Assembly: GCA_946414315.1 (NCBI GenBank)
Contig: CAMKNZ010000018.1
Location: 1 to 39,985 of the forward strand
Source: an uncultured Clostridia bacterium
Lineage (GTDB): Bacteria > Bacillota > Clostridia > Christensenellales > Aristaeellaceae
Direction: 5' to 3'
Length of the DNA stretch: 39,985 nucleotides
In this document: positions 26,940-39,985 of the stretch, in pieces
Position numbering within the stretch: position 1 is the stretch's first letter
Layout: the number at the start of each line of letters is the position of its first letter
Position numbers and translations under genes: made by a program
Notes under the pieces: model-generated
Told to the model about the DNA's origin: nothing
The model's database searches: none
Seen by the model: the letters and a program-made list of their open reading frames with translations, nothing else

Positions 26940-28220
26940 TTACCCGATATGGTCTTTTCCGCCCATATACATTCTCAGCGCTTCAGGAATCGCGACGGTG
27001 CCGTCGGCCCGCAGGTTGTTCTCCAGGAAGGCGATCAGCATCCGGGGCGGCGCGACGCAGGTATTGTTCAGCGTATGGGCCAGGTACTTGCTGCCGTCCG
27101 CGCCCTTCACGCGGATCTGCAGTCTCCGGGCCTGGGCGTCGCCCAGGTTCGAGCAGCTGCCGACCTCAAAGTACTTCTTCTGCCGGGGAGACCAGGCTTC
27201 CACGTCCAGGCTCTTCACCTTCAGGTCCGCCAGGTCGCCGCTGCAGCACTCCAGCGTGCGCACCGGGATATCCAGCGTCCGGAAGAAGTCCACCGTGTTC
27301 TGCCACAGCCTGTCGAACCACATGGGGCTCTCTTCGGGCTTGCAGATCACGATCATTTCCTGCTTTTCAAACTGGTGGATGCGGTACACGCCCCGCTCCT
27401 CGATGCCGTGGGCGCCCACTTCCTTGCGGAAGCAGGGGCTGTAGCTCGTCAGCGTCTGGGGCAGCTGGTCCTCGTCCAGGATCGTGTCGATGAACTTGCC
27501 GATCATCGAATGCTCGGAGGTACCGATCAGGTACAGATCCTCGCCCTCGATCTTGTACATCATGTTTTCCATCTCAGCGAAGCTCATAACGCCGGTCACC
27601 ACGTTGCCGTGGATCATGAACGGCGGCACCACATAGGTGAAGCCACGGTCGATCATGAAATCCCGGGCGTAGCTCAGGATCGCGCTGTGCAGCCGGGCCA
27701 CGTCGCCCATCAGGTAATAGAACCCGTTGCCGCTGGTCTTGCGCGCGGCGTCCAGGTCGATGCCCGCCAGCCGCTCCATGATGTCCACATGATAGGGGAT
27801 CTCCCATTCCGGTACCACGGGCTCGCCGAACCGTTCGATCTCGACGTTCTCGCTGTCGTCCTTGCCGATCGGCACGCTGTCGTCGATGATGTTCGGGATC
27901 ACCAGCATCCGCTTGCGGATCTCGCCTTTCAGTTCTTCTTCCTTCGTTTCCAGCGCGGCCAGCTCATCCGCCATGGCGGCCACTTCCGCCTTCAGCTTCT
28001 CGGCTTCTTCCTTCAGGCCCTTGCCCATCAGTCCGCCGATCTCCTTGGAGATGGTCTTGCGCTTGTTGCGCAGGGCGTCGCCCTGCTGGATCGCTTCCCG
28101 GAATTCCCGGTCCAGCGCGATCACTTCGTCCACCATCGGCAGCTTGGCGTCCTGGAACTTTTTCCGGATATTCTCCCGGACCTTCTCCGGATCATTCCGG
28201 ATCAGATTAATATCTAACAT
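26940..28220 (-). CDS. serS: Seryl-tRNA synthetase
   Basis: The 426-residue protein charges tRNA-Ser and tRNA-Sec. It begins MLDINLIRNDPEKV, with a coiled-coil arm (about 30-100) that reaches the tRNA long arm, then motif 2 (FRKEVGAHG), the EVGSCSNLGDAQARR segment and motif 3 near PPRMLIAFLENN. Length is typical. ATG at 28220 follows CGGAGGAAAC. It lies downstream of jag, a position where trmE and gidA would be found in many Firmicutes. Repeat D copy 2 is in the leader. Confidence 0.96.
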   Translation of the reverse strand: MLDINLIRNDPEKVRENIRKKFQDAKLPMVDEVIALDREFREAIQQGDALRNKRKTISKEIGGLMGKGLKEEAEKLKAEVAAMADELAALETKEEELKGEIRKRMLVIPNIIDDSVPIGKDDSENVEIERFGEPVVPEWEIPYHVDIMERLAGIDLDAARKTSGNGFYYLMGDVARLHSAILSYARDFMIDRGFTYVVPPFMIHGNVVTGVMSFAEMENMMYKIEGEDLYLIGTSEHSMIGKFIDTILDEDQLPQTLTSYSPCFRKEVGAHGIEERGVYRIHQFEKQEMIVICKPEESPMWFDRLWQNTVDFFRTLDIPVRTLECCSGDLADLKVKSLDVEAWSPRQKKYFEVGSCSNLGDAQARRLQIRVKGADGSKYLAHTLNNTCVAPPRMLIAFLENNLRADGTVAIPEALRMYMGGKDHIG

Positions 28221-28271
28221 ACTTGTTTCCTCCGGCTATTTATTTACTAAATATCTGTATTTTTATTCTGT

Positions 28272-28382
28272 CCGAAGGTCCAGGGCGTTTTCACGGCCGC
28301 TGCCGGTGGCAGATGAAGGCCGGGAAAACGTTTATCCTTCCACCGGAAAGCCCTGGTCGCGTCCGAAGACGCGAAATCCTTT
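28272..28382 (-). repeat. Repeat D, copy 2, carrying a B-type hairpin
   Basis: Same ends as 25965-26020, with the first stem changed to TCGCGTC paired with GACGCGA over a TTCG loop and the second stem CCAGGGC with GCCCTGG kept. About 55 extra bases sit in the second loop and form a B-type hairpin: outer CGTTTTC and CGGCC paired with GGCCG and GAAAACG, inner CTGCC with GGCAG, and a 3' bulge ATGAA. It lies between jag and serS. Confidence 0.75.
28286..28330 (+). repeat. B-type hairpin inside repeat D copy 2
   Basis: The plus strand forms an outer stem (CGTTTTC with GAAAACG, CGGCC with GGCCG, one A/G mismatch), the inner stem CTGCC-GGT-GGCAG, and a five-base bulge ATGAA on the 3' side. The three full B units show the same inner stem and same-sided bulge. 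The site is missing from D copy 1, so it looks like an insertion. Confidence 0.65.
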
Positions 28383-29309
28383 TTATTTCTTCTGAGTGAT
28401 CACAACATGCCGGTTCGGTTCTTCGCCCTCGGAGTGGGTATCCACGCCGTCGGTCTGCTGCAGGGCGTAATGGATGATCCTTCTCTCGTAGGGATTCATG
28501 GGCTCCAGGCTTACCTTCCGGCCGGTGCGCAGCGCGCGGTTCGCCATCCGGTTGGCCAGGCGGATCAGGGTATCTTCCCGCTTCGCCCGGTAGTTCTCAG
28601 TGTCCAGCGTGACCCGGGTGTAACCTTCGCGGCCCCGGTTCACCTTCAGGCTGGTCAGGTACTGCACCGCGTCCAGGGTTTCGCCCCGGCGGCCGATCAG
28701 GATGCCCAGCGTATCGCCGTTGATATAGCCGAACACGTTGCCTTCGGCGTCCGTGCCCATGTCTATGGTCACGTCCACGCCCATCAGCTTCGTCAGTTCC
28801 ATCAGGAACGCGTGCGCAATCCCGGCAGGAGAATCTTCCGTCAGTTCTTCGGCCGCAATCATCGTCACTTCGGGCTTCTCCATCGGACGGATTTCCTGTT
28901 TCGGAGCCTTGGGCGCTTCTTCGGTCTTTTCCTCAGCCTTGGGTTCGTCTTTCTTTTCAGCCTTCTTCTCAGCCTTTTCAGCTTTCTTCTCAGGCTTCTT
29001 TTCGGTTTTCTTTTCAGCCTTTTCTTCGGCTTTCTCGGCCTTCTTTTCGACCTTTTTCTCGGCCTTCTCGGCTTTCTTTTCCGTCTTCTTCGCGGGCTTG
29101 TCCTCCAGCAGGTCAGCCAGCGGATCCTCTTCGGCATCCTTCAGGGTCAGGCGGACCTTCACCGGGCGGGAGCCGAACAGGCCGAACAGGCCCTTGCTGC
29201 CTTCTTCCACAACCTGAACATCTACATCCGCGATGGAAACGCCAAGCTCCTGAAGGCCCTGCTCAATGGCTTCGCTTTCAGTTCTGGCGGTAAATTCATA
29301 CTGCTTCAT
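28383..29309 (-). CDS. jag: RNA-binding protein Jag (KhpB) with a Lys/Glu-rich linker
   Basis: The 308-residue protein has a Jag_N domain (1-55, GSKGLFGLFGSRPVKV), a low-complexity linker of EKKAEKAEKK-type repeats at about 70-136, a KH domain with LGILIGRRGETLDAVQYL, and a C-terminal R3H domain (NRMANRALRTGRKVSLEPMNPYERR). Jag/KhpB binds many RNAs and is tied to cell size and division in Gram-positives. Linker length is well above the usual. It overlaps yidC by 4 bp (ATGA) and follows the rpmH-rnpA cluster in the usual order. ATG at 29309. Confidence 0.93.
   Translation of the reverse strand: MKQYEFTARTESEAIEQGLQELGVSIADVDVQVVEEGSKGLFGLFGSRPVKVRLTLKDAEEDPLADLLEDKPAKKTEKKAEKAEKKVEKKAEKAEEKAEKKTEKKPEKKAEKAEKKAEKKDEPKAEEKTEEAPKAPKQEIRPMEKPEVTMIAAEELTEDSPAGIAHAFLMELTKLMGVDVTIDMGTDAEGNVFGYINGDTLGILIGRRGETLDAVQYLTSLKVNRGREGYTRVTLDTENYRAKREDTLIRLANRMANRALRTGRKVSLEPMNPYERRIIHYALQQTDGVDTHSEGEEPNRHVVITQKK
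28902..29102 (-). repeat. Low-complexity linker of jag
   Basis: Codons about 70-136 encode near-tandem EKKAEK, EKKVEKK and EKAEKK units, forming a charged, likely helical or disordered spacer between the N-terminal domain and the KH domain. The nucleotide tract is AAG/GAG-rich and prone to slippage. Confidence 0.85.
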
Positions 29310-30310
29310 TTTACGCTTCCTTCCCCGGCCACGCTGTTTTCGGCCGCAGCTTCTTTCTTATCCAGATACTTGTTGATCGCATAGGTCTGTCCCATGCTCA
29401 CCAGGTTGCCGGCCACCCAGTACAGCGCGAATGCCGCGGAGTAGCTCAGACAGATGATCAGGGAGAAGATCGGGAAGAAATACTGCATGAACTTCCCGGT
29501 GTTCGGCTGGCCCTGGGCCGCAGGCTGCGCCTGGTTGCCGCCCATGATCTTGGTCATGAAGATCTGGCTCGCCGCGCTCAGGATAGGCAGGAGCAGCCAG
29601 CCGTTGTAGGAGTTGATCAGCGAGAACTGGGTAATCAGCAGGTTAAACGTCCAGCCGGGTTTGACCGCAACAGCCTCCACATAGGCGGCGTTCTGCTGCA
29701 TGGCAGCCGCGATCTGCTGGATCGACGCAGCCAGGTTGTCCTTGCTGAAGCTTTCCACAGTCAGTCCCAGGTCCTTGATCAGGATCGGCAGGTTGTTCTG
29801 GTCCAGCTTGCTGAACCATTCCGTCCACTGTTCCGTGGGGATCACCCGCAGCGTGTTCAGATCCGGCAGGGATGCGGCAAAAAAGCTGTCGGGCATCCAC
29901 AGGTTCTTGATCCACAGCCAGGGCTCCAGCGTGGGTGTTTCGTTATTCAGGATCTGGCCAAGCTGCATCAGCAGTTCCGTGTTGGCAGCCATACGCATGG
30001 CGCCGAACACGGCGATCAGGATAGGCCAGGTCAGCAGCAGCGGCAGGCAGCTGCTCAGCGGGTTGATATGCTCTTTTTTATAGAGCTCCGCCATCTTGGC
30101 GTTCAGCTTTTCCTTGTCGTTGGCGTACTTCTTCTGCAGCGCCTGCTGTTTGGGCGCCAGTTTCTGGGTCTTCCGCATGCTTACGCGGCTCTTGATGTCC
30201 AGCGGCGTCAGCACCAGACGGACCATGATGGTGAACACCACCATCGTCCAGCCCCAGCTCCCGACCCAGCTTTGGATCCAGGCCAGGATGTTGAAAAGAA
30301 ACTCATTCAT
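29306..30310 (-). CDS. yidC: Membrane protein insertase YidC/Oxa1
   Basis: The 334-residue protein inserts membrane proteins with or without SecYEG. It has five predicted membrane helices, with the cytoplasmic loop MRKTQKLAPKQQALQKKY and the signature NPLSSCLPLLLTWPILIAVFGAM. No lipobox is seen at the N-terminus, in contrast to the Bacillus SpoIIIJ form. A long loop (about 120-225) separates the second and third helices. ATG at 30310 follows a GGAGGGAATAACCC site. It is the second-last member of rpmH-rnpA-yidD-yidC-jag. Confidence 0.95.
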   Translation of the reverse strand: MNEFLFNILAWIQSWVGSWGWTMVVFTIMVRLVLTPLDIKSRVSMRKTQKLAPKQQALQKKYANDKEKLNAKMAELYKKEHINPLSSCLPLLLTWPILIAVFGAMRMAANTELLMQLGQILNNETPTLEPWLWIKNLWMPDSFFAASLPDLNTLRVIPTEQWTEWFSKLDQNNLPILIKDLGLTVESFSKDNLAASIQQIAAAMQQNAAYVEAVAVKPGWTFNLLITQFSLINSYNGWLLLPILSAASQIFMTKIMGGNQAQPAAQGQPNTGKFMQYFFPIFSLIICLSYSAAFALYWVAGNLVSMGQTYAINKYLDKKEAAAENSVAGEGSVK

Positions 30311-30316
30311 TCCGGG

Positions 30317-30559
30317 TTATTCCCTCCTTAATGTAGTGCAGGGATCCTCCGGTACGGGGTCATAGCCCCCCTTGCTGAAGGGGTTGCAGCGCAGCAGTCT
30401 CCACGCGGCCAGTCGTCCGCCTTTCCATGCGCCGTACCGCTCGATGGCTGTCACGGCGTATTCGGAACAGGTGGGGATATACCGGCAGGTCGGCTTGCGC
30501 TTGCGCGGGCTTAATTCCCGTTTGTAAAAACGGATCAGGAAAAGCAGGAATCGTTTCAT
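30317..30559 (-). CDS. yidD: Membrane protein insertion efficiency factor YidD
   Basis: The 80-residue protein carries the family motif [24 protein letters not shown] in spirit, with TCSEY at its core, and [12 protein letters not shown]. YidD assists YidC and the translocon. ATG at 30559 overlaps the rnpA stop by 2 bp. The frame was extended upstream in the raw ORF, but the overlap and the family N-terminus [14 protein letters not shown] fix the start here. It sits between rnpA and yidC in the canonical cluster. Confidence 0.94.
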
Positions 30560-30915
30560 TCGGCGCGGTTCCCTTCCTCTGAGGCATGTTTCAGCAGCGC
30601 GTCCTGCTTTTTCAGCAGGTAGCGCACATCTTTCCTCAGGTCTTCGAAGGCGGCCTCTGCGGCTGAAGTCCTGGCGACGATAACGTACAGGCCGGTTTTC
30701 ACGCCCCCCAGATAGGGCCGGAAGCATTCCCGCAGGCGGCGCTTGATCTTGTTCCGGACCACGGCGTTGCCTGTTTTCTTGCTGACGGAAAACCCGACCT
30801 TCAGCTCTTTGCTCGGGGCAAAGAGCATGACCAGATTACGGCAGGCGACCGAATGTCCTCTGCGGTAGACATACTGGAACGCCCTGTTTTTCTTCAGCCG
30901 ATAACGTCTTTCCAT
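30556..30915 (-). CDS. rnpA: Ribonuclease P protein component
   Basis: The 119-residue basic protein binds the RNase P RNA and helps it process tRNA 5' ends. It has the start [18 protein letters not shown] and the signature [27 protein letters not shown] at 30915 follows GAAGGAAAG. It lies downstream of rpmH, with a hairpin terminator between the two, a common way of giving fewer RnpA than L34 proteins. Confidence 0.96.
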
Positions 30916-30956
30916 TCACTTTCCTTCCGCTTTCCGCGGAATCATCCCTTTATGAG

Positions 30957-30986
30957 GAAAAGCCCGCCCATCTTTCACGGGCGGGC
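30957..30986 (-). terminator. Attenuating terminator between rpmH and rnpA
   Basis: On the minus strand GCCCGCCC pairs with GGGCGGGC over a nine-base loop, followed by TTTT CC. The hairpin and short T tract suit partial termination, which would let part of the transcription continue into rnpA. Confidence 0.75.
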
Positions 30987-31025
30987 CTCATCCACAGTCA
31001 TACAGAATTCGGCTTTACGGCGGTA

Positions 31026-31160
31026 TTACACCGTCAGCTCTTTGCGGCCGCGGCGACGGCGAGCAGCCAGAACCCGGCGGCCGTTCTTGGTCGCCATCCG
31101 GGCACGGAAGCCATGCACCTTGCTGCGCTGGCGTTTCTTGGGCTGGTATGTACGGAACAT
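31026..31160 (-). CDS. rpmH: Ribosomal protein L34
   Basis: The 44-residue protein is L34 of the large subunit: [21 protein letters not shown] and [19 protein letters not shown]. It is too short to appear as an ordinary predicted gene but is unmistakable. The ATG at 31160 follows GAGGAG. It is the first gene of the rpmH-rnpA-yidD-yidC-jag unit. In most bacteria dnaA lies on the other side of rpmH; here metK is the upstream neighbour and no dnaA is present. Confidence 0.97.
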
Positions 31161-31195
31161 GGTCAACACTCCTCACAGATTGAAACTCTTTTTGT

Positions 31196-31247
31196 GGATC
31201 CTGCGGGGATCCTCATCTCAGGCTGTCCCGGTAAAGAACGGACAGCC
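31196..31247 (-). promoter_or_regulatory. Hairpins in the rpmH leader
   Basis: The expected transcript begins at or near a hairpin GGCTGTCC with GGGACAGCC (31221-31247), followed by GGATCC paired with GGATCC over five bases (31196-31212). A 5'-terminal stem may protect the message from decay; the second may hold a regulatory site. Confidence 0.5.
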
Positions 31248-31252
31248 CAATA

Positions 31253-31282
31253 AATATATCAGAATCAGCAAACCCTTGTCAA
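31253..31282 (-). promoter_or_regulatory. Promoter of rpmH operon
   Basis: TTGACA (31277-31282) and TATATT (31253-31258) with an 18-bp spacer. A weaker second pair, TTGTTT and TATACA with 17 bp between, lies further upstream near 31340-31370. The rest of the 242-bp gap to metK holds no gene. Confidence 0.8.
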
Positions 31283-31402
31283 GCCTTTTTTACTAAGGTT
31301 TTTAGGGTTGTCAGGCCCTCATTTTCCTACCCACTATATCCTGTGGTTGTATAATGCTTTTTGCACTACTAAACAACCCCTCTTTTAGCGAGCGCGGCGC
31401 AA

Positions 31403-32584
31403 TTATTTCACAAAAGCCTTCAGTTGCTCAACGTAATCCACGTGCTCCCAGGGCAGGTCCACATCCGTGCGTCCGAAATGCCCGTACGCCGCCGTCTGCC
31501 TGTAGATCGGCCGGCGCAGGTTCAGCCGCCTGATGATCGCGGACGGCCGGAAATCAAACACTTTGCTGACCGCCTCGCTCAGCTTGTCGTCACCCACAAC
31601 GCCTGTACCGAAGGTCTCCACCAGCACGCTCACCGGCTCAGCCACGCCGATGGCATAAGCCAGCTGGATCTGGCAGCGCTTGGCCAGTCCGGCGGCCACC
31701 ACGTTCTTCGCCGCATGGCGGGCGGCGTAGGCCGCGCTCCGGTCCACCTTCGTCGGGTCCTTGCCGGAGAAAGCGCCGCCGCCGTGGGGCGCGCTGCCGC
31801 CGTAGGTATCCACAATGATCTTGCGTCCGGTCAGTCCGGAGTCTCCCTGGGGTCCGCCGATCACGAACCGGCCGGTAGGATTGACATAAATCTTGGTTTT
31901 GTCGTCCAGGAGTTCCGCGGGAACGATGGGCTTGATCACCAGCTCGATCATGTCCTTGCGGATCTGCTCCAGGGAAGCTTCCGGCGCGTGCTGTGTGGAA
32001 ATGACGATCGTATCCACGCGCACAGGCCTGCGTTCTTCGTCATATTCGATGGTAACCTGGGTCTTTCCGTCCGGGCGCAGGTAGTCCACCTTTTCGGCTT
32101 TCCGGATTCCGGCCAGCTGTCTGGCCAGTTTGTGGGCCAGGGAGATCGGCAGCGGCATCAGTTCAGGAGTTTCGTCGCAGGCATAGCCGAACATCATTCC
32201 CTGGTCTCCGGCGCCGTTGTCGTCCTCCGTGCTTCCCGCGTCCTTCGCTTCAAGGGATTTGTCCACGCCCATCGCGATATCGGCGGACTGCTCGTCGATG
32301 TTGGTGATGATTCCGCAGGTATCACAGTCAAAGCCGTACTTGGCCCTGTCGTATCCGATATCCCGGATCACTTCCCTCGCGATCCGCGGAATATCCACAT
32401 AGCATTCCGTGGAGATCTCGCCCATGATATGGACAAGGCCCGTGGATACGGTGGTCTCGCACGCAACGCGGCCCATGGGATCCTTTTCGAGGATCGCGTC
32501 CAGGATCGCGTCGGAGATCTGGTCGCAGATCTTATCGGGATGGCCTTCCGTAACGGACTCGGATGTGAAGAAATAATGACTCAT
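31403..32584 (-). CDS. metK: S-adenosylmethionine synthetase
   Basis: The 393-residue protein makes SAM from methionine and ATP. It starts [18 protein letters not shown], with [12 protein letters not shown], and the P-loop-like [22 protein letters not shown] at 32584 is chosen over an upstream in-frame ATG because the family starts at the [11 protein letters not shown] strand and AAGGGGGAAAA lies just before; the longer form would translate the leader repeat. Expression should be controlled by the SAM riboswitch at 32826-32937. Between the riboswitch terminator and the start codon lies repeat B copy 1. Confidence 0.96.
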
Positions 32585-32638
32585 TGTGTTTTCCCCCTTT
32601 TCTGAATTGCGATCGCCGTTACCCATAGGCAGCGTATA

Positions 32639-32743
32639 CCGCAATCTCAATGGTCGTGACTCCACACCGTGGAGATCACTCCCTTTCGATTGACCTCAGA
32701 ACCGATGATATATCTGCCACCGGCAGTCATCGGTTCTTCGCCC
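32639..32743 (-). repeat. Repeat B, copy 1: in the metK leader
   Basis: A 105-bp unit shared with 36641-36744 and 38788-38891. On the minus strand: outer stem GAACCGATGA with TCATCGGTTC, inner stem CTGCC-GGT-GGCAG, five-base bulge ATATA, then TGAGGTCAATCGAAAGGGAG, a hairpin CTCCAC-GGT-GTGGAG, and GTCACGACCATTGAG. It sits between the riboswitch terminator and the metK ATG and is transcribed in the metK leader. On its other flank, at 32609-32623, GCGATCGCCGTTACC matches the end of repeat A. Confidence 0.85.
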
Positions 32744-32768
32744 GCGCTGAAGCGCGGACGCTCACCTC

Positions 32769-32805
32769 AAAAACAAACCGCCTGGCAAGCACACATACCA
32801 GGCGG
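32769..32805 (-). terminator. SAM riboswitch terminator
   Basis: CCGCCTGG pairs with CCAGGCGG over a twelve-base loop, followed on the minus strand by TTTGTTTTT. It lies just after the aptamer and is the expression platform. Confidence 0.88.
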
Positions 32806-32825
32806 GATTCGATCTTTTTGACCGT

Positions 32826-32937
32826 CCTTATCTGTCAGCGCTTCCCTGCGGGGTGTGCACGCTGCGGGATTTGGCACCTTGCTTTCGCCGGTTGCCGTGA
32901 CGTCATCGGGCCCGTCCCTCGGTCACTCGTGATAAGG
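32826..32937 (-). promoter_or_regulatory. SAM-I (S-box) riboswitch aptamer upstream of metK
   Basis: The minus strand reads CCTTATC, GAGGGACGGGCCCGATGA, GGCAACC, CAAGGTGCCAAATCC and GATAAGG in order. This matches the S-box consensus: P1 closes with CCTTATC and GATAAGG, and GAGGGA, GGCCC, GGCAACC and GGTGC are the conserved core stretches. The aptamer binds SAM and favours the terminator at 32769-32805, so metK is turned off when its product is plentiful. Confidence 0.95.
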
Positions 32938-32955
32938 TATTCAGTTGCGGGAGTT

Positions 32956-32984
32956 ATCTTATTCAAAAATCCGGTGTTTGTCAA
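32956..32984 (-). promoter_or_regulatory. Promoter of metK leader
   Basis: TTGACA (32979-32984) and TAAGAT (32956-32961) with a 17-bp spacer, just before the riboswitch. The -35 box lies in the loop of the terminator of the upstream gene pduL. Confidence 0.85.
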
Positions 32985-32995
32985 CACCGGATTTT
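32965..32995 (-). terminator. Terminator after pduL
   Basis: AAAATCCGGTGT pairs with ACACCGGATTTT over TGACAA, followed by TT. The stem directly follows the pduL stop at 33000 and overlaps the metK promoter, so the two share DNA. Confidence 0.85.
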
Positions 32996-32999
32996 GACT

Positions 33000-33572
33000 T
33001 TATTTAATGAGTTCACCCATCGTACCGTTCACGGCGCAGGCGGCGTTGCTCTCATCCGTGTCGATGTGCATCGCCAGGGAGAATTTCTCGCTCACGCGGA
33101 CCACCACGTCGCCGAAGGTCAGGGCGCGGCCGTCGGTTTCCACCTTCACGGAAACAACGTCCTTGTCCTTCACGCCGAAGCTCTCGGCGTCAGCGGGGGT
33201 CATGTGGATGTGGCGCTTCGCGGCGATGACGCCCTCGGCGACCTCAACCTCACCCGCGGGACCGACCAGCTTGCAGGCGCCGGAACCGGCGATGTCTCCG
33301 GATTCCCGCACGGGAGCGGTCACGCCGATGGAACGGGCGTCAGTCAGGGAAAGCTCAACCTGGGTAGCGGGGCGGACGGGCCCGAGGATGCGGACGCGCT
33401 TCAGCGTGTTCTTGGGGCCGACCACGTCCACCTGCTCCTCGCTGGCGAACTGTCCGGGCTGGCTCAGCCAGCTCTTCACGGTCAGCTCATGTCCGGCGCC
33501 GAACAGGGTTTCCAGGTCTTCTTTGGTCACATGCACATGGCGTGCGGAAGTTTCAACCAGAATCTTGCTCAT
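33000..33572 (-). CDS. pduL: Phosphate propanoyltransferase PduL (phosphotransacylase)
   Basis: The 190-residue protein interconverts acyl-CoA and acyl phosphate (phosphotransacetylase-like). It has two metal-binding regions, TSARHVHVTKEDLE near the N-terminus and AAKRHIHMTPADAE near the middle, and SLTDARSIGV and FSLAMHIDTDESNAA, all diagnostic of PduL. It lacks an encapsulation-peptide-like extension and no microcompartment shell genes are near, so it probably serves fermentation to acetate in the cytoplasm in place of Pta. A repeat A copy lies before it, and mscL precedes that. Confidence 0.93.
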   Translation of the reverse strand: MSKILVETSARHVHVTKEDLETLFGAGHELTVKSWLSQPGQFASEEQVDVVGPKNTLKRVRILGPVRPATQVELSLTDARSIGVTAPVRESGDIAGSGACKLVGPAGEVEVAEGVIAAKRHIHMTPADAESFGVKDKDVVSVKVETDGRALTFGDVVVRVSEKFSLAMHIDTDESNAACAVNGTMGELIK

Positions 33573-33622
33573 TGTTTTTTCTCACTTTCACTTTTTCTTG
33601 TCCAGAAGCAAAGAGTGGAGCA

Positions 33623-33709
33623 TTGAGCAACTGTCCAAATCTCTGATTTGGGTAACAGTTGCCATGCTACAGCTGTCAAAATCCTGTAGGGATTTTGGTA
33701 ACAGCGATC
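33623..33709. repeat. Repeat A, copy 2: between mscL and pduL
   Basis: An 87-bp unit matching 12094-12181. The first hairpin is CAACTGT with ACAGTTG and CCAAAT with ATTTGG; the second GCTGT with ACAGC and CAAAATCC with GGATTTTG, each with a GTA bulge on the right arm. It ends in GCGATCGC. Here it is between two genes, while the other copy is in a coding region. Confidence 0.85.
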
Positions 33710-33722
33710 GCATGATTACGGA

Positions 33723-34121
33723 TTAATCTTTCAGCTCGCTGGTGCAGTTCGGGCAGCGGGTCGCCTTGATGCTGATCTCGCTCTGGCAGAAGGGGCACAC
33801 CTTGGTGGTGGGCTCGGCGGGAGCTTCTTCTTCCTTCTTCTTCAGGTCCTTGGCCTTGTTCATCGCCTTGATGATCGCGAAGAGGATCAGGGCGGTGAGC
33901 AGGAACTCAACAACCACGGCAGCGAAGGAAATCAGGGAGCCGACGAATCCGGTTCCGCCTTCGGGGGTCTTGGGCAGGGCTTCGAGGATGGGGTTCAGGA
34001 AGATTTCCACCACAGCGGTGACAACCTTGCCGAACGCGCCGCCCAGGATCACGGCCACAGCCAGGTCAACGACATTGCCTTTGAATGCAAATGCTTTAAA
34101 CTCGTCCAGTAACTTCTTCAT
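33723..34121 (-). CDS. mscL: Large-conductance mechanosensitive channel MscL with C-terminal zinc ribbon
   Basis: The 132-residue protein opens a wide pore in the membrane under osmotic shock. It starts MKKLLDEFKAFAFKGNVVDLAVAVILGGAFGKVV-like and has two membrane helices (about 17-41 and 62-86). After the charged cytoplasmic helix (KKKEEEAPAE) comes a zinc ribbon with C109, C112, C123 and C126 in CPFCQSEI and RCPNCTSEL. Classic MscL ends at the cytoplasmic helix. ATG at 34121 follows AAAGGGG. It may be co-transcribed with the gene before it. Confidence 0.92.
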   Translation of the reverse strand: MKKLLDEFKAFAFKGNVVDLAVAVILGGAFGKVVTAVVEIFLNPILEALPKTPEGGTGFVGSLISFAAVVVEFLLTALILFAIIKAMNKAKDLKKKEEEAPAEPTTKVCPFCQSEISIKATRCPNCTSELKD

Positions 34122-34202
34122 GATGATGTACCCCTTTCAAATTCTATTATTTGTGATCGTCGCAGCCGCTCACCGTTCGCTTTCAGCTCCGGTTTGCGGA
34201 TC

Positions 34203-34937
34203 TTACTTCTTTCCGCCGAACAGGCCGCCCAGGGCTTTGCCGATGTTCTTGATCAGGCCGTTCACGATCGTCCGGGTCGCGGAGCTGATCGCGGTATTCT
34301 TCACGCGGCCGGCTACGGAGTCGTTGCGGCGGGCGCGCTCAGCGGCTTCTTCACGCAGCTGGTCGTTGCGAGCACGGCGTTCCGCGGCTTCCTGCTCGCG
34401 TGCCTTGCGTTCTGCTTCCTTGGCGGCAGCGGCAGCGGCCTTCTGCTGGGCTTCCAGCGCCTTGGGATCCGTAGCGACGGGAGCGGGTACATAATTGCCG
34501 GTGGCGGGATCCAGCACCATGTCGACCATCTGCTGCACATACTGGCCGGTCGCCTGGTCCAGGACCATCACGGGCATCTTCTGGGTCTGGGGCTGCACCT
34601 GAATGGTGGGAACTGCCTGCTGCACAGCCTGGACAACGGGCTGAGCGGCCTGCTGGACGGCCTGCACCACGGGCTGGGCCGCCTGCTGGACCGCTTCCGC
34701 AACGGGAGCGCCGCTCTGCACCGCTTCGACCACGGGGGCCGCAGCCTGCTGCACGGCTTCAACCACGGGCGCGGCAGCCTGCTGGACTGCTTCGACCACG
34801 GGAGCCGCGGCTTCCTGCACAGCCTCGACCACGGGGGCAGCCGCTTCCTGAACGGCTTCCGCAGCGGCGGTCATGCCTTCGACTTCTTTTTCAACATACT
34901 GACCGGTGGTAGGATCGAAAACCTTGAATGTTGCCAT
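34203..34937 (-). CDS. Hendecad-repeat protein ending in a DUF853-like tail
   Basis: No named family covers the whole 244-residue protein. Residues 6-15, 125-134 and 141-150 each carry a (V/M)xDPxTGxYV-type motif. Residues 27-109 are eleven-residue repeats AAAPVVEAVQQ (with variants), a regular amphipathic pattern. Residues 165-200 are a charged helix rich in Ala, Arg and Glu. The last 35 residues, RVKNTAISSATRTIVNGLIK then GKALGGLFGGKK, resemble the C-terminal tail of DUF853 HerA-like ATPases. The preceding gene encodes a DUF853 ATPase without this tail. The start at 34937 has a weak ribosome binding site. Its function is unknown; it may be the ATPase partner. Confidence 0.75.
   Translation of the reverse strand: MATFKVFDPTTGQYVEKEVEGMTAAAEAVQEAAAPVVEAVQEAAAPVVEAVQQAAAPVVEAVQQAAAPVVEAVQSGAPVAEAVQQAAQPVVQAVQQAAQPVVQAVQQAVPTIQVQPQTQKMPVMVLDQATGQYVQQMVDMVLDPATGNYVPAPVATDPKALEAQQKAAAAAAKEAERKAREQEAAERRARNDQLREEAAERARRNDSVAGRVKNTAISSATRTIVNGLIKNIGKALGGLFGGKK
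34611..34859 (-). repeat. Tandem 33-bp coding repeats (11-residue units)
   Basis: Codons 27-109 of the preceding entry hold about eight units of AAAPVVEAVQQ, QAAQPVVQAVQ and AAAPVVEAVQE type. The 33-bp nucleotide period is visible as repeated GCCTGCTG and GCCGCAG stretches on the plus strand. Variation is mostly synonymous or conservative, so the coding period is under selection. Confidence 0.85.
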
Positions 34938-35022
34938 CTTTCTCTGCGGCGCTCTCTCCCCGCGCCGTACAGGGGTCGTTGAGTAAACAGTGACGTATGG
35001 AAGATCAGCTTTGCGCCGCACC

Positions 35023-36402
35023 TCAGAAATAGTACCACTGGCCGTTTATCAGCTTAAACCGCTGTGGATCCATTCCCTGCACCTGTGGTGGTGTCGGCGG
35101 TGCCGGCGGTGTCGGCTGTTCCTGAGTTCCGGGATCGTCTGCGGGGGTCGGTTCGTCGGCGTACCTGCTCTTCAGCGGGCTGGCGTCGATGACCATCCGG
35201 CGGACTTCCTGGCTGATCGCGCCCATATAGCTTTGCGGGGGTAAAATCGTGGCCCGCTCCACGACGCTCGGAGCTCCGTGCTCATCCAGGAATGAGACCA
35301 GCGCCTCCCCTGTTTTCAGGGTGGTGATGGCTTCTTCTGTATCAAAGGACGGATTCGTCCGGAACGTCTGTGCGGCGACCTTCACGGCCTTCTGGTCCAG
35401 CGGGGTGTATGCCCGCAGGGCATGCTGGATCCGGTTGCCCAACTGACCGAGGATCGACATCGGGATGTCCGCCGGGCTCTGGGTGATAAAGTACACGCCC
35501 ACGCCCTTGGAGCGGACCAGCCGGACCACCTGCTCAATCTTTTCCATCAGGGGTCGGCTGCAGTTATTGAACAGCAGGTGCGCTTCGTCGAAGAAGAACA
35601 CGATCTTCGGCTTCTCCGCGTCTCCGCGCTCCGGCAGCAGGTCATAGAGTTTCGTCAGCATCCACAGCAGGAACGTGGAATACATCGTGGGATTGTTGAA
35701 CAGCCTGTCCGCGCACAGGATGTTGATCTTGCCCCTGCCGTCGGCCGGGTTCACCTGGATCCAGTCGTTGATGTCGATGGCCGGCTCCCGGAAGAACACG
35801 TTTCCGCCCTGGTCTTCCAGTACGCCCACGGCCCGCTGGATGGCGCCCACGCTGGCCGCCGATACGTTGCCGTATTCCAGGGTGTATTCCTTCGCATTCT
35901 CGCCCACGTGGATCAGCAGGTTCTTCAGGTCCTGCAGATGCTCCAGCGGCATCTGTTCCCGGGCCGCTACCCGGAAAGCGATGTTCATCACGCCGCTCTG
36001 GGTCTCGTTCAGGCTCAGCATCCGGCTCATCAGCAGCGGGCCCATGTCCTCCACCGTCGCCCGGATCGGGATACCCTGTTCCCCGTATACATCCCAGTAT
36101 TCTGTGGGATAGGAAGTATATTTGAATTCATCCTTCGGCACGCCGCATTTGTCCAGCCGCTTGTCGATGGCTTCCGTCGCGGTGCCGTTCATAACCATGC
36201 CGCTCAGGTCGCTCTTGATGTCGCTCAGGAACACCGGCACGCCCATGTCGGAAAAGCCTTCCGCCAGAACCTTCAGGGACACGGTCTTTCCGGTACCTGT
36301 TGCGCCGGCGATCAGCCCGTGGCGGTTGGCCATGGAGGGCAGCAGATAAACCGGGTTTCCATTTTCGCAGGACCCGATCCAGATCTTGCTGTCATGGAGC
36401 AT
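35023..36402 (-). CDS. HerA-like ATPase of the DUF853 (YjgR) family, tail-less
   Basis: The 459-residue protein has Walker A GATGTGKT at 33-40, the SDIKSDLSGM region, GNVSAASVGAIQRAVG, and Walker B FFFDEAHLLF near residue 270, followed by RSKGVGVYFITQSPADIP and LGQLGNRIQHALRAYTP, all characteristic of DUF853 ATPases related to HerA. Members have been linked to DNA processing but the role is not settled. The family ends in a basic glycine tail; here the core is followed by a Pro-rich linker (about 415-443) and a MDPQRFKLINGQWYYF end. A comparable tail ends the next gene downstream. ATG at 36402 follows GGAGGG. Confidence 0.88.
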   Translation of the reverse strand: MLHDSKIWIGSCENGNPVYLLPSMANRHGLIAGATGTGKTVSLKVLAEGFSDMGVPVFLSDIKSDLSGMVMNGTATEAIDKRLDKCGVPKDEFKYTSYPTEYWDVYGEQGIPIRATVEDMGPLLMSRMLSLNETQSGVMNIAFRVAAREQMPLEHLQDLKNLLIHVGENAKEYTLEYGNVSAASVGAIQRAVGVLEDQGGNVFFREPAIDINDWIQVNPADGRGKINILCADRLFNNPTMYSTFLLWMLTKLYDLLPERGDAEKPKIVFFFDEAHLLFNNCSRPLMEKIEQVVRLVRSKGVGVYFITQSPADIPMSILGQLGNRIQHALRAYTPLDQKAVKVAAQTFRTNPSFDTEEAITTLKTGEALVSFLDEHGAPSVVERATILPPQSYMGAISQEVRRMVIDASPLKSRYADEPTPADDPGTQEQPTPPAPPTPPQVQGMDPQRFKLINGQWYYF

Positions 36403-36438
36403 CTGTATCCCTCCGTTTCAATTCTCAACTTTTCGAAT

Positions 36439-36468
36439 ATTTTACATCATTTTCCTTTGAATCGTCAA
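36439..36468 (-). promoter_or_regulatory. Likely promoter of the DUF853 gene
   Basis: TTGACG (36463-36468) and TAAAAT (36439-36444) with an 18-bp spacer, 36 bp before the ATG. It follows a terminator at 36517-36543. Confidence 0.65.
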
Positions 36469-36516
36469 GGTTTTGAGCGCTTTTCGAATGTTTTTTCCGG
36501 CAACACTCTCCCCATG

Positions 36517-36543
36517 AAAAAACCCGTCTGAAAATCAGACGGG
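36517..36543 (-). terminator. Terminator between repeat C and the DUF853 gene
   Basis: On the minus strand CCCGTCTGA pairs with TCAGACGGG, followed by TTTTTT. It ends transcription from the rph/rdgB side before the DUF853 promoter. Confidence 0.88.
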
Positions 36544-36594
36544 ATATTATTCTCTTATCGCCCTTCCTGCCGCCAATCGGTCTTGCTCGTTTAA

Positions 36595-36799
36595 GCGAGC
36601 GCGGCCGGGATTTCCGATTTGGGCGACATCCGCAGCGTGGGGCGAACCTCTGACGACTGCCAGTGGCAGGAATATCGTCAGAGGTGAGGTCAACTGAAAG
36701 GGAGTGATCTCCACAGTGTGAAGTCACGACCATTGAGGTTGCGGATCTACTTTGCATAAGCGCGAGCGGTCCCCAAATCGGGATATCGTGACAGCGAGC
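36595..36799. repeat. Repeat C, copy 2, carrying a complete B unit
   Basis: A 205-bp element with the same ends as 19611-19758: GCGAGCGCGGCCGG on the left and GTGACAGCGAGC on the right. The arms pair by GATTTGGG with CCCAAATC. Its middle is occupied by repeat B copy 3. The element fills most of the 415-bp gap between the RNase PH gene and the DUF853 gene; apart from the promoter and terminator noted, nothing else was seen there. Confidence 0.75.
36641..36744 (+). repeat. Repeat B, copy 3: inside repeat C copy 2
   Basis: Same unit as 32639-32743 but inverted relative to the minus-strand genes. Outer stem CCTCTGACGA with TCGTCAGAGG, inner CTGCC-AGT-GGCAG, bulge GAATA, then TGAGGTCAACTGAAAGGGAG, and CTCCACAGTGTGAAG, whose hairpin has one mismatch. 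Outer stem bases differ from copies 1 and 2 on both arms. Confidence 0.85.
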
Positions 36800-36817
36800 G
36801 TCTCAAGCTGCGAAAGA

Positions 36818-38134
36818 TCAATTATGAAGCTCTTTCATGATTTCCCGCATTTTTTCCGCCGCGCGGAACCGGTGGCTCACCTGGTTCTTCTCCTCCTGGT
36901 TCATCTCGGCATACGTCTTGTTCATCGGCTCATACAGGAACAGCGGATCATATCCGAACCCGCCGGTCCCCTGCCGCTTCGTCAGCAGCGTTCCCGGGCA
37001 GCTTCCCTCGGCGATCAGCGTTTCCCGGCCGGGGATCTTCAGCGCCAGCGCGCACTTGAACGCACAGGCCCGGTTCTCTTTCCCTTCCATCCGGCTCAGC
37101 AGCAGGTCGTTGTTCGCCTCGTCGTTTCCGTGCTCCCCGGCATACCGGGCGCTCATTACCCCGGGTTCTCCGTCCAGTGCGTCAACCTCCAGCCCGCTGT
37201 CGTCCCCGATGGCGGGATATCCCGTCGCGTTGCTCACCGCTTCCGCCTTGATCGCGGCGTTCCCGGCAAAGGTGTCCGCGTCCTCTTCGATCGGGCCGAA
37301 GAAGCCTGCCGCGGTCATCGGCGCCAGGGTATAGAAGTCCTTGAACATCTCCTGCAGTTCCCGCAGCTTATGCTCGTTGCCCGTCGCCACCAGCAGCAGA
37401 GGCTTGGGCGCGATCTGCGCCGCCCGCTCGCCCAGGGCTTCCTTCTGGGCATCCATCAGTTCCCGGATGCCCTTTCCGGCATATTTCATCAGCGTATCCA
37501 GCTCAGCCCCGGAGAACGCCCGGCCTTCGCCGGTTCCCTGCAGCTCGATGAATTCGCTTTTTTCGTTCATCACAAAGTTCATGTCCACCTGGGCATGGCT
37601 GTCTTCCTGATAGCACAGGTCCAGGCACGGCTCATCGTCGATCACGCCGGCGCTGATCGCCGCCACCTGGTGCACGATCGGGCTGATCGGCAGTTTCTTT
37701 TCCCGCACCAGCCGATCCGCCGCGCAGGTCAGGGCTACCATTGCCCCGGTGATGGACGCCGTCCGGGTACCCCCGTCCGCTTCCAGCACGTCGCAGTCCA
37801 GGGTGATTGTCCGCTCGCCCAGGGCCTTCAGGTCAATCGCCTGGCGCAGCGCCCGGCCGATCAGCCGCTGGATCTCCACGCTCCGGCCGTCCTTCTTGAT
37901 GCCGTCCCGCTTTTTCCGCTCCGTGGTGGAGGCCGGCAGCATCGCGTATTCCGCGGTCACCCAGCCCTGTCCCTTACCCTTCAGGAAGGGCGGAACCGCT
38001 TCTTCCACGCTCGCCGTGCAGATCACCCGGGTATTTCCCGTGGCGATCAGGCAGCTGCCGTACGCCGTGTGCACAAAATCCGTCTCAATGCTCACCGGCC
38101 GCTTCTCGTCCGGTGCTCTTCCGTCAAATCTCAT
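36818..38134 (-). CDS. rph: Fused RNase PH and XTP/dITP diphosphatase (RdgB)
   Basis: The 438-residue protein joins two enzymes. Residues 1-235 are RNase PH, which trims tRNA 3' ends by phosphorolysis (MRFDGRAPDEKRPV, GDGTRTASITGA-like GGTRTASITGA at 121-131). Residues 246-438 are the RdgB/HAM1 pyrophosphatase that removes non-canonical purine nucleotides (ATGNEHKLREL, IGDDSGLEVDAL, GGFGYDPLF). The joint is short. A similar fusion is known in some Clostridia. It overlaps pgsA by 11 bp. ATG at 38134. Confidence 0.94.
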   Translation of the reverse strand: MRFDGRAPDEKRPVSIETDFVHTAYGSCLIATGNTRVICTASVEEAVPPFLKGKGQGWVTAEYAMLPASTTERKKRDGIKKDGRSVEIQRLIGRALRQAIDLKALGERTITLDCDVLEADGGTRTASITGAMVALTCAADRLVREKKLPISPIVHQVAAISAGVIDDEPCLDLCYQEDSHAQVDMNFVMNEKSEFIELQGTGEGRAFSGAELDTLMKYAGKGIRELMDAQKEALGERAAQIAPKPLLLVATGNEHKLRELQEMFKDFYTLAPMTAAGFFGPIEEDADTFAGNAAIKAEAVSNATGYPAIGDDSGLEVDALDGEPGVMSARYAGEHGNDEANNDLLLSRMEGKENRACAFKCALALKIPGRETLIAEGSCPGTLLTKRQGTGGFGYDPLFLYEPMNKTYAEMNQEEKNQVSHRFRAAEKMREIMKELHN

Positions 38135-38723
38135 CTTTCTTTTCTTCTTTCTTGTTTATCGTTCTGATCGCGCCCGTGGCATAAATCACCATCGCTACCA
38201 CGGCCAGCGCCACCGTAATCCACAGCAGGATAATATCCGGCGTCATGCCCCGCAGCATCACGTTTCCTTCCACGAACCTTTCGTGGAAAAAGCTCAGGAT
38301 CAGCGAGGCGATGAATCCCACCTGGGCCGCCTTGCCGAAATAGTTGCTGTAGACCACCACGTCCCTGCTCAGCATGAATACGCCGCCCAGCACCATTACC
38401 AGTTCCTTCAGGGCCACGATGATCACCGCCACCAGCGGCAGCGGGCCCCAGAATGTCTGGCACACCATCGCCGTCAGGACCATCAGCTTGTCCGCCAGCG
38501 GATCAAACAGCTTGCCGAAGTCCGTGATCTGGTTCAGCTTCCGCGCCAGGTACCCGTCCAGCATGTCCGTCAGGCTCGCCGCGCAGAACACGCACAGCGC
38601 CGTGATCTTCTCTCCCTTGAAAAACAGCACCACAAACACCGGAATCAGGATAATCCGGATGATTGTCAGCACATTCGGAATCGTCCACACATTGCTGAAC
38701 AGCTTTTGAATCTTTTCTTTCAA
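38124..38723 (-). CDS. pgsA: CDP-diacylglycerol-glycerol-3-phosphate 3-phosphatidyltransferase
   Basis: The 199-residue membrane enzyme makes phosphatidylglycerol phosphate. It has the CDP-alcohol phosphotransferase motif D53-xx-D56-G57-xx-A60-R61-x8-G70-xxx-D74-xxx-D78 in LTDMLDGYLARK and FGKLFDPLADK, and several membrane helices. The start is a TTG at 38723 with GAAGGA before it; no ATG fits. It shares 11 bp with the RNase PH gene and is read from the same transcript. Repeat B copy 2 lies before it. Confidence 0.93.
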   Translation of the reverse strand: MKEKIQKLFSNVWTIPNVLTIIRIILIPVFVVLFFKGEKITALCVFCAASLTDMLDGYLARKLNQITDFGKLFDPLADKLMVLTAMVCQTFWGPLPLVAVIIVALKELVMVLGGVFMLSRDVVVYSNYFGKAAQVGFIASLILSFFHERFVEGNVMLRGMTPDIILLWITVALAVVAMVIYATGAIRTINKKEEKKDEI

Positions 38724-38750
38724 CCCTAAGTCCTTCTCTCGTGGTTATCA

Positions 38751-38778
38751 TAATTATGAATTGTGAATTCTGAATTAA
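38751..38778. repeat. AT-rich flank of repeat B copy 2
   Basis: A 28-bp string made of AATTATGAATTGTG followed by AATTCTGAATTAAT. AATTCTGAATT and AATTATGAATTGT recur beside repeat A copy 1 (12077-12096 and 12186-12197), and shorter related text is at 3563-3580 and 32601-32608. Confidence 0.55.
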
Positions 38779-38787
38779 TCTCTGGTT

Positions 38788-38891
38788 CCGCAAGCTCAAT
38801 GGTCGCGACTCCACACTATGGAGCTCGCTCCCTTTCGCTTGACCTCAGGACTGACGAAATTTCCGCCACTGGCGGTCGTCAGTCCTTCGCC
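38788..38891 (-). repeat. Repeat B, copy 2: at the end of glpK
   Basis: Same unit as 32639-32743. On the minus strand the outer stem is GGACTGACGA with TCGTCAGTCC, the inner CCGCC-AGT-GGCGG, bulge AAATT, then TGAGGTCAAGCGAAAGGGAG and a CTCCA/TGGAG hairpin. The TGA stop of glpK (38879-38881) falls inside the outer stem, so the unit supplies the last codons of glpK. Confidence 0.85.
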
Positions 38892-39985
38892 CAATCCTTC
38901 GACCGTTCAATCGCCTTATGCCATCCCCTGAGGTTCAGCAGCCTCGTCGCCTCATCCATCCGGGGCTCAAACTCCAGATCCTTCTGCCATCCCTTCGTGG
39001 CTTCCTCGGCGCTTCCATAGATCCCCGCGCCCAGCCCCGCCAGCAGCGCGGCCCCCAGTGCGGTCGTCTCCAGCACCCGCGGCCTGACTACCGGGATCCC
39101 GGTGATATCTGCCTGGAACTGCATCAGGAATCCGTTGGCGCTGGCGCCGCCGTCTACCTGCAGGCTTGCGGGCTTGCTGCCGCAGTCCGCGATCATCGCG
39201 TCCATCAGGTCCGCGCTCTGGTAGGCGATCGCCTCCAGCGCAGCCCTCACAATCTGCGGCCGCCCGGTGCCCCGGGTCATGCCCACCAGCGTGCCCCGGC
39301 TGTACATATCCCACCACGGCGCGCCCAGGCCCGTGAATGCCGGCACCAGGTATACGCCGCCCGTGCTCTGGATGCTCTGGGCAATGCTCTCGCTCTCCGC
39401 CGCGTGGTCGATGATCTTCAGCTCGTCCCGCAGCCACTGGATCGTCGCGCCGCCCATGAATACGCTGCCCTCCAGCGCGTAGGTCGGCTTCCCGCCGATC
39501 CGCCACGCCATCGTGGTCAGCAGCCCGTGCTTGCTCTCCACCGGCTTGTCACCGGTGTTCATCAGCATAAAGCAGCCCGTGCCGTAGGTGTTTTTGATGT
39601 CCCCGGTCTTCAGGCACGCCTGGCCGAACAGGCTCGCGTGCTGGTCGCCCGCCATGGCGGTCACCGGGATCGCCCGGCCCAGGATTGCCGGATCCAGCAT
39701 GCCGATGGGCCCGGCCGTGTCCACCACCTTCGGCAGGCACGCCTTCGGGATGCCCAGGAGCTTCAGCAGGTCGTCGTCCCAGTCCTGCGTATGCAGGTTA
39801 AACAGCATCGTCCGCCCGGCGTTGGTGGCATCGGTCACATGGGGCCGGCCCTCCAGCAGGTTCCAGCACAGGTAGCTGTCCACCGTGCCGAAGCACAGGT
39901 CGCCCTTCTCCGCCTTTTCCGTCAGGTTGTAGTAGTCCAGCAGCCATTTCAGCTTCGTTCCGCTGAAATATGCGTCCGGCACCAG
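38879..39985 (-). CDS. glpK: Glycerol kinase, C-terminal part (N-terminus beyond the window)
   Basis: About 369 codons are present, ending at the TGA in repeat B. The visible part includes [58 protein letters not shown] and [21 protein letters not shown], which are characteristic of FGGY-family glycerol kinase. It phosphorylates glycerol to glycerol 3-phosphate, the lipid and glycolysis entry point. The last residues, KDWAKD, overlap the repeat unit. Upstream sequence, including the start and the P-loop, is missing; about 130 residues are absent. Confidence 0.95.

Follow-up and report, generated by a model that had tools for sequence, protein, structure and literature searches.

Short hairpin repeats are common in bacteria. 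Elements of the IS200/IS605 group carry a hairpin at each end and insert beside a tetranucleotide without target duplication; integron attC sites are folded single-strand hairpins with unpaired bases, and the double-hairpin elements of fungal mitochondria consist of adjacent hairpins and are presumed to be mobile. In the REP/BIME and TnpA-REP (RAYT) system, as described in the available text of PMC8266576, short extragenic bulged hairpins carry a foot tetranucleotide, and foot bases choose the cleavage site; the same text gives the guide model for IS200/IS605 ends and PATE-like miniatures. REPs also serve as landing sites for IS621 (PMC11208160, available portion), and the BOX repeats of Streptococcus are modular, dispersed and predicted to fold (PMC3049150, available portion). 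Here we compare with these systems a repeat from an uncultured Clostridia bacterium (Christensenellales; Aristaeellaceae), present in a window of 39,985 nt, the whole stretch of DNA analysed.

The repeat, Repeat B of the earlier note and here named R1, is a two-hairpin repeat of ~105 nt that consists of a module A and a module B and carries no gene (Table 1). On the F strand, the orientation used in the earlier note, it reads CCG, module A, the foot bases at positions 56-57, module B and a flank tetranucleotide at positions 102-105, mostly GCCC. Module A forms a 19-pair stem-loop, interrupted by small internal loops and a bulged base, and module B comprises a 12-pair stem (outermost pair 57-102), a 5-nt bulge on the 5' side, a 5-pair apex and a 3-nt loop. 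The R strand of R1 starts with GA after GGGC, and the TC/TC internal loops read GA/GA there, which we take to be a tandem G.A arrangement.

Three full copies had been described in the window. They are present and alike in layout, with two coordinates corrected by one base (36640-36744 and 38788-38892), and their paired outer and inner stem changes and the five-base bulge in each are as described. What had been called an almost unchanged 3' flank is, in contrast, the second hairpin, module A, the stem of which also covaries (14 of 19 pairs changed on both sides). The first copy is in the leader of metK, with the SAM riboswitch on one side and the start of metK on the other, and occupies the bulge of another hairpin (read by eye as ..GGCAGCGT-ATA-[R1]-CCGCGCTGAAGCGCGG-ACGCT..); because this composite stands between the riboswitch, with its terminator-like hairpin, and the start of metK, it may alter metK expression. 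The second copy is located between genes for a HerA-like ATPase and an RNase PH/Ham1 fusion, and the third at the extreme end of an FGGY-kinase gene, presumably glpK-like (glycerol-kinase-like), the ortholog of which in the sister genome G018 has no insert. A hairpin at 28286-28330, proposed as a stripped-down fourth copy, exists and is kept in G018, but it gives no match to the R1 covariance model at E<=1; by eye it has neither module A nor the TC/TC internal loop nor the GGNN site, and its apex matches module B over 15 nt. Since it shares only the bulged apex and has no model match, we do not count it as a copy of R1.

Table 1. Positions of R1 copies and neighbouring features in the window
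Feature	Position	Strand	Basis or remark
R1 copy 1	32639..32743	+	model 123.6 bits; fold; covariation; G018 without it
R1 copy 1, parts	module A 32639-32692; foot dinucleotide 32694-32695; module B 32694-32743; flank tetranucleotide 32740-32743		flank GCCC, other strand GGGC
R1 copy 2	36640..36744	-	model 117.5 bits; module A 36691-36744, module B 36640-36689, flank tetranucleotide 36640-36643
R1 copy 3	38788..38892	+	model 123.1 bits; module A 38788-38841, module B 38843-38892
FGGY kinase gene	38879..39982	-	stop codon now within module B of R1 copy 3
SAM riboswitch upstream of metK	32825..32938	-	Rfam RF00162, 78 bits
metK (S-adenosylmethionine synthetase), downstream of R1 copy 1	31403..32584	-	Pfam PF00438, PF02772, PF02773
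Block missing from G018 at metK leader	32607..32768 (edges approximate)	.	alignment with G018
Bulged hairpin, earlier proposed as fourth copy	28286..28330	.	apex common with module B; present in G018
XY two-hairpin repeat (GCGATCGCTGT-TAC-C.. and GGCAACTGT-TAC-CC..)	33625..33715; also given as 33623-33686	-	read by eye
XY repeat, second copy	12094-12157		sequence reading by eye

R1 is mobile, as orthologous sites in the sister genome are empty. G018, the closest relative seen, is collinear with the window over positions 27001-39985 at about 85-94% identity in long blocks and has no R1 at any of the three sites in the window. At the kinase gene, the window matches G018 up to GGGCGA, then carries R1, and then continues with AGAGATTAATT (by eye, GATTGGGCGA^..^AGAGATTAATT in the window versus the G018 target GATTGGGCGAGAGATTAATT). 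This join is clean: no target is lost and any duplication is at most 1 nt, four bases at the far end (AACC) being assignable to neither side. The idea that an arm of module B copies the target was dropped, because at this gene the target resumes beyond module A. At the second copy the intergenic gap is about 276 bp shorter in G018, and in the metK leader a block larger than R1 is missing there.

Further copies were followed in both directions. Six G018 copies were searched in the own genome, of which three were taken to alignment (L148, L180 and L073), L016 and L185 were not collinear or showed a large gap, and L223 matched on one side; of three own-genome copies searched in G018 and a further genome, G034, L005 and L009 aligned and L008 had no match there. 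Orthologous loci without the insert were seen for four of the five aligned copies (L148, L180, L005 and L009; six pairs), L073 being the one that could not be aligned with its sister locus. L148 and L005 are composites that the sister genome does not have, the L009 insert is absent in two genomes, and the L180 insert, also missing from the sister, has the end of the adjacent gene duplicated beside it, on one side, over ~50 nt (by eye). The kinase gene alone provides a clean join, the remaining joins being composite, diverged or, at L180, accompanied by a duplicated flank.

The sites that R1 occupies share a motif. Among 210 R-strand flanks beside module B, 112 read GGGC followed by GA, 54 GGAC followed by GA and 24 GGAT followed by GA, which together make up 190. 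At GGAT sites the T and the GA often form the TGA stop codon of a gene, and 18 of 29 T-ending sites read ..Lys-Gly and then stop, some of these being one gene in two genomes. With genes called by a simple codon-composition script, 62 copies have a gene end on their module B side, and 14 of these overlap it by exactly 6 nt; of 102 copies, 12 fall within a called ORF. By Pfam, the genes at stop sites include a transporter permease (L009), both orthologs of which end in GGATAA, and a PfkB kinase (L008). R1 is also found in tandem, inside other B modules and in the bulges of XY hairpins. XY is a second dispersed two-hairpin repeat with TAC bulges; its copy at 33.6 kb is absent from G018, and the bulges of other copies hold R1.

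The two bases at the foot of module B vary together with the site. On the F strand the foot is mostly CC, TC, AT, GC or TT, before TC, and CC is partnered by a GCCC flank, TC by GTCC, and AT or TT by ATCC. We counted this relation in 155 copies, obtained from 190 distinct elements after dropping 29 that were not 104/105 nt long (in some the loop of module A is longer) and, from the 161 left, 6 that were out of register. In 153 of the 155, positions 57 and 102 hold complementary bases (shuffled mean 117.5), and positions 56 and 103 have a mutual information of 0.73; neither value was reached in 5000 shuffles. Positions 56 and 103 hold mostly like letters (C with C, T with T), so that their relation is not ordinary pairing. 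The CC, TC and AT foot classes recur in several module A subfamilies, which argues that the foot probably switched more than once, and the TC/TC mismatch is kept with AT and TC feet. On our analysis, the relation resembles the guide bases of the REP and IS608 systems as given in the available text of PMC8266576. The site and foot letters could also be shaped after insertion.

We consider it rather probable that R1 is a small non-autonomous mobile DNA element of two hairpins, with guide-like matching to its site. A trans-acting enzyme would recognise the folded single strand of R1 and insert it 3' of GGNN, and the two-base foot, matching the site, would help to choose it, in the manner of the guide bases in REP/TnpA-REP and IS200/IS605. 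At a GGAT site at a gene end, the leading GA of R1 would complete a TGA stop, and the insertion would be tolerated; the perfect stems may be kept through re-copying and/or template switching between arms, together with selection for the fold. The earlier note had left the choice between an RNA and a transposase substrate. A mobile hairpin substrate fits better and a functional RNA less well, given the empty ortholog sites, the nested and tandem insertions, the fixed flank motif and the bases that track the flank.

R1 is widespread among relatives, in answer to the possibility raised earlier that no related genome would have it. In the own draft genome (60% complete) there are nine strong BLAST matches, one of them cut by a contig end, and 18 matches to a covariance model built from 97 distinct copies. 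The covariance-model search suggested earlier was run on genus and family genomes. BLAST matches occur in 32 of the 45 genomes of the window's genus and model matches in all 45 (1-42 each). Across the family, with at most 13 candidates scored per genome, the model matches 92 of 300 genomes in 19 of 50 genera including the own genus; many matches are weak (E about 1e-4), and 19 genera is therefore an upper reading. Outside the own genus, strong matches lie mostly in one other genus (g30). Among the matches listed, records with the R1 pattern belong to uncultured Clostridia and their relatives, many of them sampled from the ruminant gut. Four viral contigs (L429-L432) also hold the pattern and are possibly prophage or host pieces. 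A phage or plasmid origin was dropped as a search with one copy as query gave no hits. No description of R1 was found in the literature searched, with subscription journals mostly outside the search.

The stem letters of R1 drift in pairs, and its hairpin geometry is preserved. The three window copies fold better than shuffled sequences (z of -5.7, -4.5 and -6.2; none of 200 shuffles equal). In an alignment of 97 distinct copies (set A1; one misregistered row of 98 left out), 98.3% of the cells in 36 pairs are paired, and both sides change in 30 pairs. Double-changed cells number 543 versus 157 in shuffles, with none of 500 shuffles as high, and shifting the partner by one base lowers the covariation score from 0.44 to 0.07. 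A second set (A2) gives 27 pairs changed on both sides and 436 double-changed cells, but it is not independent, having been found with the model from A1, with some genomes recurring and the sets partly overlapping. Kinship and repeated copies inflate the counts in both sets; given the size of the effect, there is little doubt that the arms change together. Every one of the 97 aligned copies has the 5-nt bulge of module B, and almost all have TC/TC internal loops. The covariation in two partly overlapping sets and the retention of bulge and loops uphold the earlier view that the folded form matters.

Such covariation is what a structured RNA would display, and R1 might be one, a BOX-like repeat or small RNA selected for its RNA folding and dispersed as a side effect, which we consider improbable. 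Pneumococcal BOX repeats are modular, dispersed, predicted to fold and partly expressed (PMC3049150, available portion). The position of one copy within the metK leader would also suit an RNA, whereas the orientation of R1 relative to genes varies, all orientations being seen. In Rfam, only the SAM riboswitch exceeds the gathering threshold in the window and no family reaches threshold on R1; at E<=5 two sub-threshold matches appear, neither on an R1 copy. A functional RNA is expected to tolerate G.U far better than A.C. In the 155 copies, mismatches in 35 pairs, without pair 15-44, are 40 G.T versus 37 A.C; with pair 15-44, where the differences are largely a matter of subfamily, they are 89 versus 37. 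A control of 29 tRNAs from the loci examined, small and with structures drawn by a program that favours pairs, gives 39 G.T and 0 A.C. As G.T and A.C are equally rare in R1, ordinary RNA selection is not the obvious reading of its covariation.

Template switching between hairpin arms is a published source of paired changes (PMC8794818, available portion). The covariation could then be mainly mutational, with arm copying keeping old mobile or relic hairpins paired and no selection on the fold; we regard this as decidedly improbable, although several counts agree with it. One-sided (G.T) changes are scarce in A1, with 47 cells, of which a single pair accounts for 22, versus 543 double, and the mismatches are symmetric. 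L009 and L163, apparently one site, differ by 11 double changes and 1 single change in the stems, and L002 and L085 by 4 double and 2 single. The few one-sided cells, and G.T no commoner than A.C, make it too strong to say that paired changes prove selected folding; the earlier argument from paired changes to the fold holds in that the arms covary, but template switching can also give the pattern. Against this reading, 11 close pairs (both flanks over 88%), some of them paralogues with common composite flanks, show one stem change in all. For this comparison a copy needed at least 60 nt of flank; 7 of 30 pairs whose members differed in length, and pairs of other lengths, were set aside, as were four pairs of tandem units from within a single locus and the misaligned L031/L217. 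Copying of arms would moreover erase the TC/TC mismatch of module B, yet it is kept in 145 of 155 copies, and the site motif and the like-letter relation of positions 56 and 103 would be left unexplained.

If R1 is, as we favour, a mobile hairpin substrate, an enzyme acting in trans would be expected, and among the Y1 and Y2 transposase families no mobilising enzyme was found. Y1_Tnp occurs in 39 of 92 family genomes with R1 and in 85 of 208 without (p=0.80), both scans being taken as the same 300-genome draw and the drafts being incomplete; outside the genus it is rarer with R1 (14 of 55 versus 85 of 208, p=0.04). A strong R1 match was seen in one of 30 Y1 loci, beside an IS200-sized gene, and bulged hairpins occur in these loci at background rate (0.16 versus 0.19 per kb). 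A Y1/RAYT mobiliser was rejected or weakened by this unlinked presence and by another repeat at most RAYT-like loci, and a Y2/IS91-type mobiliser by the occurrence of Y2_Tnp in only 2 of 45 genus genomes. About 16 of the 19 long-Y1 (RAYT-like) genes L287-L304 and L306 are flanked by a different short repeat (by eye), often with GGGACGG-type motifs, perhaps the cognate REPs of those genes.

That R1 belongs to a TnpA-REP (RAYT) system as one of its REPs, or is a miniature derived from an IS200/IS605 element, is very unlikely. In favour stand its bulged hairpin, flank tetranucleotide and site-tracking foot bases, the GTAG guide logic already known (PMC8266576, available portion) and Y1 genes in 28 of 45 genus genomes; against it stand the absence of Y1 association, the other repeat at most RAYT-like loci and the lack of a GTAG motif.

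A bias in orientation relative to replication was also considered. By script, 62 of 106 copies in three genomes share an orientation (25/32 in G001, 22/42 in G021 and 15/32 in G032), which is not significant (p=0.10) and weakens the idea of a lagging-strand bias. Counts by eye with assumed replichores gave 24/42 in G021 and about 32/39 in G002, a genome outside the total as its replichores are unmapped; the count by eye there would point to a bias. The idea that split A and B modules enclose an autonomous element was discarded: the pairs 1.7 kb apart in G002 are IS110 copies at the A-B junction. These IS110-family elements (L409 and L410) are 98.7% identical and have each entered an R1 copy at the same A-B junction; PF01548 and PF02371 occur in the one scanned, and a CT stands at the join by eye. 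R1 thus serves as an IS110 landing site and is, like REPs, a target of such elements.

Placed beside the described systems, R1 combines familiar features in a different arrangement. It shares with REP/BIME the short extragenic bulged hairpin, the foot tetranucleotide and the foot-site relation, but has two linked hairpins of fixed layout, free stem letters and no Y1 link; its flank is GGGC, GGAC or GGAT with GA, with no GTAG or close variant at the foot, and, unlike the cognate copies of TnpA-REP, it is seldom found beside Y1 genes. With IS200/IS605 ends and PATE-like miniatures it shares hairpins, a tetranucleotide site and a foot-site relation, and, going by the one clean pair, it would share insertion without target duplication; the absence of Y1 association and of a TTAC-type site set it apart, and its strand bias is not significant. 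Compared by description alone, BOX is similar in its modular, dispersed, folding repeats, beside which R1 has a fixed flank motif and a foot-site relation; that R1 can hold an extra hairpin between A and B is in keeping with BOX modularity. This third module, C (apex GAGCCACTGGCTC), was seen at L053, L068, L412-L415 and L417. Classical MITEs of DDE transposases differ in that the ends of R1 (CCGCA..GCCC) are not inverted repeats (by eye) and target duplication is 0-1 nt at the one clean site. R1 differs from the fungal mitochondrial double-hairpin elements in being bacterial and having a sequence-specific site, and from integron attC in having no gene cassette; attC core letters were not noticed.

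A wider reading can be offered tentatively, as a possibility. R1 may be part of a mobile system whose site choice is programmable and which relies on neither of the two HUH transposase families examined, Y1 and Y2. Its two-base guide would match the insertion site and would have been switched more than once (CC, TC, AT, TT), each switch giving access to another kind of landing site, among them stop codons rebuilt by R1 itself; the nested and tandem hairpins would in this case make up a network that targets itself, in which RNA-guided IS110 elements land at the A-B junction.

R1 is a family of small non-autonomous mobile double-hairpin repeats, known in kind, none like it having been found in the libraries searched, and it is unusual for its hypervariable perfect stems and its foot-site association. 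The family is large and densely covarying, and its insertion site, guide-like bases and fold are all readable from sequence. It lets selection and template switching as sources of perfect stems be tested directly and allows a search for its mobilising enzyme; it is also a warning that covariation in a repeat is not alone proof of a functional RNA. The two-base tag that tracks the site suggests that R1 is a small jumping element whose choice of target may be readable from its own sequence.
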